From NCBI RefSeq assembly GCF_041429775.1, contig NZ_CP163421.1, forward strand, positions 558,001 through 622,000: a stretch of DNA of 64,000 bases. The letters are read 5' to 3'. Each line of letters starts with the position of its first letter. Position 1 is the first letter of the stretch. Source of the stretch: Glycocaulis abyssi. GTDB taxonomy: Bacteria > Pseudomonadota > Alphaproteobacteria > Caulobacterales > Maricaulaceae. Positions 15,327 through 51,145 of this stretch are shown piece after piece. Position numbers and translations under genes: made by a program. Under the pieces are notes generated by a model, which worked only from the letters and a program-made list of their open reading frames with translations, searched no databases and was not told where the DNA came from.

Positions 15327-15417
15327 TGGCGGAGAGGAAGGGATTCGAACCCTCGATACGCTTTTGGCGTATACTCCCTTAGCAGGGGAGCGCCTTCGAC
15401 CACTCGGCCACCTCTCC
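15327..15417 (-). tRNA. tRNA-Ser (anticodon GCU)
   Basis: A type II tRNA of 91 nt with GGAGAGG/CCTCTCC acceptor arms, an encoded CCA end (complement of TGG at 15327-15329), anticodon GCT in the arm TCCCCTGCTAAGGGA, an extended variable arm (TATACGCCAAAAGCGTAT) and a GGTTCGAATCC T-arm. It serves AGC/AGU codons. Its 3' end is a likely attachment site for the adjacent integrase. Confidence 0.97.
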
Positions 15418-47591: not shown

Positions 47592-47733
47592 CGTCCCGGT
47601 CCTCCCTCGCGCAAACGTTGGCTTCCCATCATGGCAAAGCCATGGCAAACAGCCTGCCTGACGCGCGTGCATCACGCACCTGACTGCCTTGACCGGCGGT
47701 GCGGGCCTCTATATCTACGCGCACTCTTGATGA

Positions 47734-47809
47734 GAGCCGGTAGCTCAGCTGGTAGAGCAACTGACTTTTAATCAGTAGGTCCCGGGTTCGAGCCCCGGCC
47801 GGCTCACCA
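47734..47809 (+). tRNA. tRNA-Lys (anticodon UUU)
   Basis: A 76-nt tRNA with GAGCCGG/CCGGCTC acceptor arms and encoded CCA, D-arm GCTCAGCTGGTAGAGC, anticodon arm CTGACTTTTAATCAG (anticodon TTT) and T-arm CCGGGTTCGAGCCCCGG. Its last 28 bases are repeated at 50595-50623, marking it as the integration site of the islet that follows. Confidence 0.97.
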
Positions 47810-47811
47810 AG
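47782..47811 (+). repeat. Left attachment-site copy (tRNA-Lys 3' end)
   Basis: The T-arm, acceptor 3' arm, CCA and one following base (30 nt) are repeated at 50595-50623 in the same orientation with a single missing C. Between them lie 2.8 kb of less GC-rich DNA with one large gene. This is the pattern left by tyrosine-recombinase integration into a tRNA gene. Confidence 0.85.
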
Positions 47812-48096
47812 AATTTCAATCACATTAAAAAGACAAATCGGCGCTGCCTGCTGCGTAGGCGCGGCTGATTGGATATGGGAGCAGGCGGGCCGAAAGGGAC
47901 GTGTATTTGGCGGATGCAGGCAAAGGCAGAAGCCCTGAGTACAGACACGTTTCGGTAGACCAAACCGGCACGCTGCAGCGTCGGAGGCCCCGCTGAGCGG
48001 GCGAATAAACAGCATGTAGAACGGGCGCATTGTCCACCCCTACTTTCCGAAAATGTTAGCTGGCGGCGAGAGAGCATTTCTGCTGTGGTGTGAATC

Positions 48097-50532
48097 ATGC
48101 CCGGTCAGAAATCCCTCAGAGTTACTGGTAGCGTCTCACTGCGCCCGACCCGCATAGGCTTTCTCGTCAGGCCCAGTGATGCTGCTGCTCTAAGCCGCAT
48201 CATGCGCTGGGCGTCGTGTCTCTGGGGTGGGCGTGCAAATCCAATAATCCCTGTAGGCCCCTATCCGCCGTGCTGGCGCGCCGAACATAAAGCGTTGAGA
48301 CGGACTGCTCGCGAAGTAGCGAGGGACTACATGACCTTTTTCGAGCCCGATGTGCTTGTTGAGGCTGCGCCCGGACTCGCGGAATCGATCGGCTATGAAG
48401 AGTTTGGTGCCGACCGACATCAAAGCCAGCTAATTCACCTAGACGAATTTTTCACGAAGGAGGTTGAGCACCGCCCTGAATTGAGCTTCGGCCTTTCTGT
48501 GACAGACGCCTATCGAGATATCTACGAATCCCAGCGACGTTTCGTATTACGCGATCAGAGCCCGTCTTTAATTTTTAATGAGACATCACACAGCTCAATT
48601 GTTGAGGCTATGTTTGGTGCGTTCCCGAAAGAGGAAGGCGCCCAGGGCTTTCAATGCATTTACGAAGAGGTTTTCGAGCCGGTTGCCGTTGATGTTGGCC
48701 CTCAACACTGGTTCGAAGTCTTTGAACGCGGAGCGACAGTTCCCTTCTCTCCCACCAATCACAAAATCGAGTTGGCACCTCGAGGTTATGGTGACCTAAG
48801 CTTTTTCATCTTCGATCATACAAAGCCGGTGGACCTGATCGACTATTGGAACAAACGTCTGTTCGCTTCGCCGGTCTATCCTGTGCCGCTTTGCTGGCTC
48901 GATGAGCTTGCCGAGGCCTTGGTGGAAATGATCAGGCGAAATCATCGCCCAATTCCAAACAACCCGTCCGGTATGAAGTTCCATAGCGAGCTCTATTTTG
49001 GCCGAAGCATCAAGAAAGATGGGATTGCAGCACTTGTGAACAAGCATTTTTCGGCCTGCCCGAATGGATCATTCTACATTGGCGAGGTTCGGCATCCGAA
49101 GGTTCCTACGGAACCATTTGGCCCAACGTGCGAGCGCCATGGCTTCACAGCGGGAAGCGCAACAATCGATGCGGCGGTTACGGACGGGGGCGAAGTCAGG
49201 TTCGATACTCTCGATCCGCCATTTGCTTCCCGGTACGGAGGCGGTCGTCATCGCTGGGTTAACGTTATAAATCTCAACTGCCACGGTTCCGATGCGCTGG
49301 CGTTGACCCTGCCAACCAATCTTGAAGACCGCTCTAAGCCGCGGCTCACTCTCGGTTCGCTGGGACGAACGATGGTGACACGGGAAGGCTGGGTGCTCGG
49401 TCTAGAACACAAGGACTTACCGGCTTGGATGGTGTTACAAGACGGAACGCAGGCGATAAGCGAATGGCTGGCGCGTCGAGGGCTTCGGGCCGAGCTGTCC
49501 AGTGCCGGACGGATTGCACGCCAGATGATAGGAAGACTTGGTGGACTGTGGGCTACGCATCTAATTGCGGATGAAAATACGCTCCAATTGTTAAACAAGA
49601 TGGCTATGAAAGAGGTGTCAAAAGGCACGGGCGATGACGTCGTGAAACATCAGTTTGAGGGCCGGACAGCATCATTTGAGGATTGGCAAAAGTTGATTGC
49701 CCAGAGGGGTAAAGACCGACTGCCGAGCGTATCCTTGGAGGAGTTTACAAAGCGGCGTGTTATCAAGTTGGGTCTTAGCACGAAGTGTCCCCATTGCGAC
49801 CATGGCAACTGGTATGGTCTTGATGACGTCAATTATGAAGTTCATTGTGAGCGATGCCTGAAGCAATTTGATTTTCCGCAAGGGGAAACTTCTAGGAATT
49901 GGCGATACCGAGTAATCGGTCCCTTCAGTGTGCCAAATTATGCAGAAGGCTCTTATTGCGTCGCGCTAACCCTAAATATGTTCAAACAAAAACTCTTTCC
50001 GTCTTCAGACATGGAAATGACTTATTCCGCCGCCTTAAAACTATTTAGTGAAAATAGAAATTTTCCTCGTGAGATTGATTTCGCGTTTTGGATTGGCGAC
50101 GAGGCGCTGTTTAGGCAGCGAGAGGAGCCTCGGTTTGTTTTCGGTGAATCGAAGAGCTTTGCCCAGATTACCTTAGACGATGTGGAGGGGCTAAAGCTGG
50201 TTGCTAGTAAGCTACCCGGATCGGTAGTGGTCGTCTCGATGCTGAAGGATACGCTTTCGGAAAAGGAAAAATGCTTGCTCATCGAACTTACTCGGTGGGG
50301 GTGGGAAAGCGTCAAAGGTAAAATGCGTGCCCAGGTCGTGATTGTTACCGGACGTGAATTGTTTGCTGATTTTTCTGTCGGGTTGGCTTGGAAGAAGGCC
50401 GGGGCGCCTTTCGATCAATTCGACGATTTCCACACCTTTAGGAATTTGGACGAATTTGCTCGCGCAACACAGAAAGTCTATCTCGGACTGGACTATTATG
50501 CGGAACAAAAAGCTCATAAAGCTGCTGGTTAG
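48097..50532 (+). CDS. Large islet-borne protein: novel N-domain, zinc ribbon and PD-(D/E)XK-like nuclease
   Basis: An 811-residue soluble protein that I cannot place in a named family. Near the N-terminus is RIGFLVRPSDAAALSRIMRW, then SCLWGGRANPIIPV (to about residue 53), followed by FFEPDVLVE. Residues 564-587 hold a zinc ribbon, CPHC, 16 residues, CERC. After it comes a likely PD-(D/E)XK nuclease: EIDFAFW (E659, D661), then FVFGESKSF (E684, K686) and a helix DDVEGLKLVASKL. The codon use is less GC-rich than that of its neighbours. It is the only plausible gene of a 2.8-kb islet in tRNA-Lys, with no integrase. The fold set suggests DNA cleavage, and a restriction or anti-phage role is inferred from domain type and location. 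ATG 48097 lacks a clear ribosome site. Confidence 0.7.
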   Translation: MPGQKSLRVTGSVSLRPTRIGFLVRPSDAAALSRIMRWASCLWGGRANPIIPVGPYPPCWRAEHKALRRTAREVARDYMTFFEPDVLVEAAPGLAESIGYEEFGADRHQSQLIHLDEFFTKEVEHRPELSFGLSVTDAYRDIYESQRRFVLRDQSPSLIFNETSHSSIVEAMFGAFPKEEGAQGFQCIYEEVFEPVAVDVGPQHWFEVFERGATVPFSPTNHKIELAPRGYGDLSFFIFDHTKPVDLIDYWNKRLFASPVYPVPLCWLDELAEALVEMIRRNHRPIPNNPSGMKFHSELYFGRSIKKDGIAALVNKHFSACPNGSFYIGEVRHPKVPTEPFGPTCERHGFTAGSATIDAAVTDGGEVRFDTLDPPFASRYGGGRHRWVNVINLNCHGSDALALTLPTNLEDRSKPRLTLGSLGRTMVTREGWVLGLEHKDLPAWMVLQDGTQAISEWLARRGLRAELSSAGRIARQMIGRLGGLWATHLIADENTLQLLNKMAMKEVSKGTGDDVVKHQFEGRTASFEDWQKLIAQRGKDRLPSVSLEEFTKRRVIKLGLSTKCPHCDHGNWYGLDDVNYEVHCERCLKQFDFPQGETSRNWRYRVIGPFSVPNYAEGSYCVALTLNMFKQKLFPSSDMEMTYSAALKLFSENRNFPREIDFAFWIGDEALFRQREEPRFVFGESKSFAQITLDDVEGLKLVASKLPGSVVVVSMLKDTLSEKEKCLLIELTRWGWESVKGKMRAQVVIVTGRELFADFSVGLAWKKAGAPFDQFDDFHTFRNLDEFARATQKVYLGLDYYAEQKAHKAAG

Positions 50533-50594
50533 ATGTCGAGGGCGTCTTAGTCTCGTTGTCGTCCGGGCGCTGACGGTCGTCGCGCGCGGACACA

Positions 50595-50623
50595 CCGGGT
50601 TCGAGCCCCGGCGGCTCACCAAG
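50595..50623 (+). repeat. Right attachment-site copy
   Basis: A 29-base repeat of the tRNA-Lys 3' end (CCGGGTTCGAGCCCCGG, then CGGCTCACCAAG), lacking one C of the acceptor arm. It marks the right end of the islet; clpS follows within 160 bases. Confidence 0.85.
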
Positions 50624-50779
50624 CCCCCTTCAAAAATGCGTTGCGAGCCGCCCTCCGCCACAGCGCACTGTTAACAAGCCGCGCGAAGGGGCTTCTCACT
50701 GGCCCCCGCATGCCTATTTAATCTTGCAGACGAGCGAAGCTCTGCCGGAAGAGGCGTACCAGGTGAGGCGAAACGGCGA

Positions 50780-51145
50780 ATGGGCATGACGGACCCGCGC
50801 AAACCATCGGGACCAAAGGGGCCGTCGGCGCCGGGACCGGGCGACACGGAGCGCCAGACGGGCATTACCGTGAAAACGCGCCCGCGTACCGAGCGCCCGT
50901 CCATGTACAAGGTCTTGCTGCTCAATGACGACTTTACGCCGATGGAATTCGTCATTCAGGTTCTGATGGTGATTTTTCACAAGGACCAGGAAGACGCGAC
51001 TCGCATCATGCTGCATGTTCACCAGAATGGGGTGGGGGTTTGCGGCGTTTTTACCTACGAGGTAGCTGAGACCAAGGTGGCGCAAGTTATGGACGCGGCA
51101 CGCCGGGCACAGCATCCTCTCCAGTGCACCATGGAAAAGGACTAG
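50780..51145 (+). CDS. clpS: ClpS, adaptor of ClpAP
   Basis: A 121-residue N-end-rule adaptor. After a proline-rich N-terminus it has the conserved core [20 protein letters not shown], with the NDD that contacts the substrate alpha-amino group, and [20 protein letters not shown], the hydrophobic-pocket strand. It binds the ClpA N-domain and delivers proteins with N-terminal Leu, Phe, Tyr or Trp. clpA begins 5 bases after its stop, the usual pair. Start at ATG 50780; ATG 50786 is nearly equivalent. Confidence 0.97.

Follow-up and report, generated by a model that had tools for sequence, protein, structure and literature searches.

An islet of 2.8 kb at a tRNA-Lys gene in the window (the whole 64,000-nucleotide stretch of Glycocaulis abyssi DNA analysed here) carries cargo only, a single-gene nuclease with a probable role against phages or mobile elements; we put the probability of this reading as a whole at about two in three. 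The insertion itself (47812-50623) and its interpretation as a mobile islet are firm, and the insertion is of the tRNA-targeted type, for which a tyrosine integrase is the presumed enzyme. The cargo gene belongs to a rare, unannotated single-gene family in which predicted nuclease residues are found together with repeated defence and phage neighbours. The features of the region are collected in Table 1.

Table 1. Features of the tRNA-Lys islet and its flanks, in window coordinates.
Feature	Coordinates	Strand	Basis
tRNA-Lys(ttt), intact, integration target	47734..47809	+	ARAGORN; Rfam RF00005, 75.2 bits at 47734-47806
Left direct repeat (att-like core): final 28 nt of the tRNA followed by AG	47782..47811	+	Local alignment, shuffles
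Non-coding leader separating the tRNA from the cargo gene	47812..48096	+	Fold, promoter and copy searches
Sole cargo gene, encoding an 811-aa protein of an unannotated family	48097..50532	+	ORF list; database and relative searches
Predicted N-terminal two-lobed alpha/beta (Rossmann-like) domain, residues ~1-335	48097..49101	+	AlphaFold2; alignment A3
Predicted zinc ribbon, residues ~556-592 (C564, C567, C584, C587)	49762..49872	+	Alignment A3
Predicted PD-(D/E)XK-type nuclease domain, residues ~600-800 (E659, D661, E684, K686)	49894..50496	+	Alignment A3; AlphaFold2 model
Short right end of islet, without a large ORF	50533..50594	+	Sequence
Right direct repeat, the displaced 3' end of tRNA-Lys lacking one base	50595..50623	+	Alignment; congener flank comparison
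Chromosomal gene beyond the islet, presumably clpS (name given from its sequence); anchor for empty-site comparison	50780..51145	+	ORF list; family search

Insertion at tRNA-Lys

The first-pass annotation had noted that the end of the tRNA-Lys gene recurs downstream with one base missing, and took this as the footprint of a tRNA-targeted element. The repeat is borne out: local alignment of the 30 nt left copy with the 29 nt right copy, which lacks one C, gives a score of 26 that was reached by none of 500 shuffles of 50533-50780 (shuffle maximum 12). The intact tRNA and the displaced 3' fragment have the same orientation, and the right copy runs on into the flank that comes after tRNA-Lys in three congeners. 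ARAGORN and Rfam find a tRNA only at the left end (the Rfam tRNA family matches 47734-47806 and ARAGORN calls no second tRNA at 50595-50623), and the right copy is therefore a tRNA 3' fragment and not a decayed full tRNA-Lys.

Comparison of the tRNA-Lys/clpS junction in close relatives, as the annotation had proposed, reveals an empty site in three of five congeners (G008, G009 and G011), where a single intact tRNA-Lys is followed by the right flank of the window and clpS; in G011 the first bases past the tRNA have diverged and the alignment picks up again before clpS. The remaining two (G010 and G012) have clpS with other neighbours and are uninformative about an empty site, since tRNA-Lys lies ~93 and ~24 kb away from it, respectively, on the same contig. 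Because of the empty sites in three congeners, we interpret 47812-50623 as an insertion that left the tRNA intact.

The annotation had allowed that relatives might have the same gene at this locus without the repeat, or that the repeat might be a decayed second tRNA-Lys. Neither is the case: of 136 family genomes searched for clpS, 129 have it, whereas the cargo gene is present in only one of 137 (its own) and absent from all 136 others searched, and the three informative congeners have one tRNA-Lys at the junction and then the right flank. A single-sequence query also failed to find the cargo gene in 384 other genomes of the class. That the repeat arose by chance or from a decayed tRNA-Lys, with the cargo gene an old resident, is hardly credible, since nothing speaks for it beyond the missing base and an Rfam tmRNA row below threshold that overlies the right repeat (50572-50621; 9.2 bits, E 0.87), whereas the repeat statistics, the tRNA calls and the absence of the gene from relatives all speak against it, and the three empty sites refute it already.

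Composition and content of the islet

The DNA between the repeats had also been described as less GC-rich, with one large gene and no integrase, and both statements hold. GC content in 500-base windows is 0.47-0.58 inside the islet versus 0.60-0.69 outside, and the cargo gene (GC 0.518, GC3 0.537) differs correspondingly from five neighbouring genes (GC 0.593-0.648, GC3 0.738-0.826). The cargo gene is the single large ORF, and a tblastn search of 47700-50700, in which 13 integrases or putative integrases served as queries, yielded no convincing integrase remnant (best E 0.064), so that candidate is rejected. The view of the region as a tRNA-targeted element is thus supported by the repeat, the three congener empty sites and the foreign composition.

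The leader upstream of the cargo gene has an unremarkable predicted RNA fold (z 0.23), and we rejected a structured leader RNA on this value together with the Rfam results, which consist of the tRNA and three sub-threshold rows. No sigma-70-like promoter match is present upstream of the cargo gene.

Origin and mobility

The repeat and the empty sites show that a small element entered tRNA-Lys at its 3' end, presumably through a tyrosine integrase. The element brought a new 3' end with it, the tRNA stayed intact, and the old 3' end came to lie 2.8 kb downstream. What remains is a cargo-only islet of one gene, and because it has no integrase inside, any movement would depend on one acting in trans. 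The sequence is compatible both with a shrunken element and with a satellite moved in trans.

The first of these alternatives, with a little less than an even chance in our estimation, is that deletions stripped a larger tRNA-Lys island, originally a prophage or an integrative element, of its integrase and of every gene but one; it would now be immobile, its cargo having the same function as in our preferred reading. Deletion is common in old islands, and larger prophage-like islands occupy tRNA-Lys in at least two other family members, G003 (~51 kb; L096-L098, G003:C8) and G107 (~30 kb; L099-L100, G107:C8), in which all genes, also those for integrases, were assigned by eye. Against this, the two repeats of the islet have stayed almost identical and enclose a compact unit of a single gene, and no convincing trace of an integrase was found within it. 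The repeats of the G003 and G107 islands are longer and start in the anticodon arm, whereas that of the islet starts in the T arm, so the islet likely used a different integrase sub-site.

The second alternative, possible and somewhat short of probable, is a cargo-only element, compact by design and moved in trans by the integrase of another element in a cis-mobilisable or satellite-like manner. It would account for the precise ends and the single intact gene, and its possible helpers include seven of the eight PF00589 places in the same genome, those that score above cut-off. There is also a precedent in 15 integrase-less ssrA islands of Dehalococcoides, which have been described as possible cis-mobilizable elements (PMC3146451). 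Weighing against it, no integrase was matched to the att core of the islet, and searches of 135 other family genomes and of the plasmid collection brought up no meaningful second copy of the left flank, the sole other family-genome match being 28 bp within a coding frame in G103; a left flank shared with other elements is accordingly rejected.

The cargo protein

The 811-aa cargo protein (P0001) has no Pfam match, no PADLOC family at E values up to 1 and no PDB match by sequence, and its one row in NCBIfam is meaningless (12 bits where the cut-off is 187; E 0.097). A profile search of PDB sequences gave three rows, the best of them (E 0.049) unrelated, and none of six family members scanned has a PADLOC match at E up to 0.01.

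P0001 is nonetheless very probably a PD-(D/E)XK-type nuclease, as judged from a structural model and conserved residues. The core of this superfamily has the order alpha-beta-beta-beta-alpha-beta, strand 2 bearing the D and strand 3 the ExK. The AlphaFold2 model of the full protein (mean pLDDT 80, pTM 0.82) has this order over residues 616-715 (helix 616-632, strands 640-651, 658-667 and 679-686, helix 693-705, strand 709-715), and both core and residues agree with this definition. E659, D661, E684 and K686 are kept in 21 of 21 rows of alignment A3, as are the four cysteines of the putative zinc ribbon (CxxC...CxxC). A3 omits L043 (a near copy of L042), the short L046, L048 and L057, the plasmid members P0002 and P0003 (both of which keep the residues) and distant members found later. 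One of the latter, in G701 (L113:2530-8817), was inspected by eye and keeps the zinc ribbon and ExD, with EAT replacing ExK; immediately before this gene lies one whose 1226-aa product matches AAA weakly.

The N-terminal domain modelled alone has a mean pLDDT of 81.9 and a pTM of 0.84, and it contains the A3 motifs RPxR, WGGxxN and WNxR. The invariance of the WGG and WN motifs is partly built in, because relatives on genome contigs and viral contigs were found through them; the nuclease and zinc residues played no part in the selection.

Neither the full model nor the N-domain has a significant match in structure comparisons; TM-scores are low even in the best rows, and rmsd values there are 12-19. 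With the full model the top Foldseek row is Card1 (E 9.9e-3, TM-score 0.17 by query), and the top 20 rows include Card1, SfsA, the cOA-activated nuclease 6sce and MspJI, which we take to be PD-(D/E)XK superfamily members, although none is significant. Thus Pfam, the profile search against PDB (E 0.049) and Foldseek (E 9.9e-3) provide no significant match to a known member of the superfamily. The BFVD search is headed, again without significance, by a protein of Bacillus phage JL that is itself uncharacterised (E 2.6e-3), and the glutamate racemases that head the rows for the N-domain (E 9e-3) are not significant either.

Relatives and their genomic neighbourhoods

The family is rare and patchy, with members in Pseudomonadota, Poribacteria, Planctomycetota and Verrucomicrobiota. 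There are relatives on a Photobacterium plasmid (L002; 31% identity over 99%) and a Bradyrhizobium plasmid (L003), with partial plasmid matches in Streptomyces and Sphingomonas when other family members are used as query; a 758-aa second protein of L003, considered as a tandem relative, proved not to be one. A first scan of genome contigs with the single P0001 sequence found no relative; genome contigs hold 23 relative loci, some partial, and four viral contigs carry relatives, with none among 50,697 phage records searched by tblastn with a single sequence. A profile search matched six of 398 genomes of the phylum, its own included (five of 397 others), with a full-length match in G679, one cut by a contig end in G636, one split over two contigs in G597, and weak ones in G701 and G593. 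The G679 protein, from another family of the same class, is the closest relative found (50% identical), and its gene has a Phage_integrase gene on each side (L112:6476-12083). The family tree (24 rows) does not follow the hosts: Bradyrhizobium appears in three separate places, Rhizobium sullae lies next to Roseibium, and Verrucomicrobiota fall within a proteobacterial group. We did not find the family in the open-licence literature, where its motif words gave unrelated peptides only.

Several of the relatives lie among recognizable defence genes. Direct scans identify GajA, GajB (Gabija) and Dsr2 near the family gene in L035, and in two Poribacteria loci (L041 and L044:5092-16743) it is surrounded by type I methylase and restriction genes, the specificity gene in L041 (L041:4621-18308) starting after a gap of 4 bases. 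Other neighbours match AbiJ (L003), PDC-S02 (L047), HEC-03 (L049) and PDC-S06 (L051), Hma-like genes are present in L053, and L056 has a generic UvrD-type match only. The individual proteins for these scans were selected by eye, and three of ten plus three of a further ten neighbours, for example those of L002 and L057, have no defence match.

Seventy-nine neighbours of the relatives (22 loci) matched 461 PADLOC models, versus six matched by 50 window ORFs, a rough contrast that does not prove enrichment because the models are redundant, the 79 are a hand-made subset of 176 listed ORFs (omitting L052 and L055) and the control is the window of a single genome. Two antisense ORFs in this control were replaced by hand with the coordinates of clpA and kbl.

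The three viral contigs scanned (L034, L119 and L120; L121 was left out) have the family gene near endolysin, baseplate, tail, terminase or portal genes. In L119 (L119:1754-4249) an 831-aa protein that appears SIR2-like by eye, and has no PADLOC match, is encoded beside the relative. Integrase genes adjoin the family gene in L047 and L112.

No neighbour family is common to more than three loci, and those found in three are all from Poribacteria; we therefore rejected a conserved partner gene. Adjacency to tRNAs was likewise rejected as a family trait, since they are present in three of 24 relatives' loci, about what chance would give by a rough estimate. In one locus of Bradyrhizobium agreste (L055:6186-8854) the family gene lies 252 bp past the 3' end of a tRNA-Ser and coincides with a dip in GC; no displaced tRNA fragment or repeat was found downstream.

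Function of the cargo

An anti-phage role, which the annotation had suggested, is probable for P0001 on indirect evidence: the protein has a nuclease-type domain, and some of its relatives lie in defence loci or are carried by viral contigs. We envisage a single-protein nuclease in which, on the model and the conserved residues, the N-domain is joined through a middle region and the zinc ribbon to the PD-(D/E)XK domain. The N-domain may sense infection or an invader-derived cue and switch on the nuclease, which would then cut invading DNA or kill the infected cell. Because no methyltransferase or NTPase travels with the gene here, self must be told from non-self either through this switching or because the protein recognizes modified DNA. 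A bolder proposal, which we consider rather unlikely, is that the WGG/WNxR two-lobed Rossmann-like N-domain represents a new class of sensor, coupling an unrecognised infection cue to a PD-(D/E)XK nuclease within one protein. The family would then be an undescribed immune system of a single gene, carried by phages, plasmids, restriction loci and tRNA islets that have no integrase.

The members on the two plasmids (L002, L003) and on viral contigs (L034, L119, L120), and those next to integrases (L047, L112), would suit a protein that serves the mobile element in plasmid or phage maintenance, DNA processing or inter-element competition, and not host defence. We judge this improbable: the gene is alone here and within type I restriction loci in Poribacteria, it has no widely shared neighbour, and inter-element competition overlaps with defence in any case.

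Relationship to known systems

Card1 and Can1 are CARF-coupled PD-(D/E)XK nucleases of type III CRISPR systems and, like P0001 as modelled, combine a Rossmann-like region with a PD-(D/E)XK nuclease in one chain. P0001 differs in its length, its added zinc ribbon and the lack of any Pfam match, and no Cas model is among the PADLOC models matched by the 50 window ORFs. As to a CARF domain in its N-terminal part, Pfam gave no match and the top Foldseek rows, the glutamate racemases, are not significant. Shedu-type defence is provided by a single-protein nuclease, also a stand-alone PD-(D/E)XK protein, from which P0001 is distinguished by having no PADLOC or Pfam match.

Among mobile elements, the tRNA-targeted genomic islands of Islander likewise have an intact tRNA at one end, a displaced 3' fragment at the other and foreign composition. 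Their definition requires an integrase gene, and their sizes peak at 13.6 and 39.9 kb (PMC4383910); the islet has no integrase and is therefore not an island in the Islander sense, and by lying below those peaks and outside that requirement it illustrates the small size to which cargo integrated at a tRNA can be reduced. With cis-mobilizable elements (PMC3146451) it has in common att-like ends (here putative in function) and the lack of integrase or transfer genes; it differs in having a single gene, and its mobility and a neighbouring helper island are hypothetical.

PICMI are minimal phage satellites with an integrase, AlpA and primase (PMC10803314), small chromosomal elements that, like the islet, may carry defence genes. 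The islet has none of the three and, as a single large ORF with no integrase, regulator or replication genes, does not qualify as a phage satellite of the PICMI or P4-like kind. P2- and P4-like hotspots of antiviral systems have been reported (PMC9122126).

A recombinase gene at tRNA-Ser

Elsewhere in the window, a tyrosine recombinase gene (PF00589; 13936-15246, minus strand) adjoins a tRNA-Ser(gct) at 15327-15417. A 97% identical copy is located at G000:C1:2530385 in the same genome, and this may therefore be another tRNA-linked element, present in two copies.
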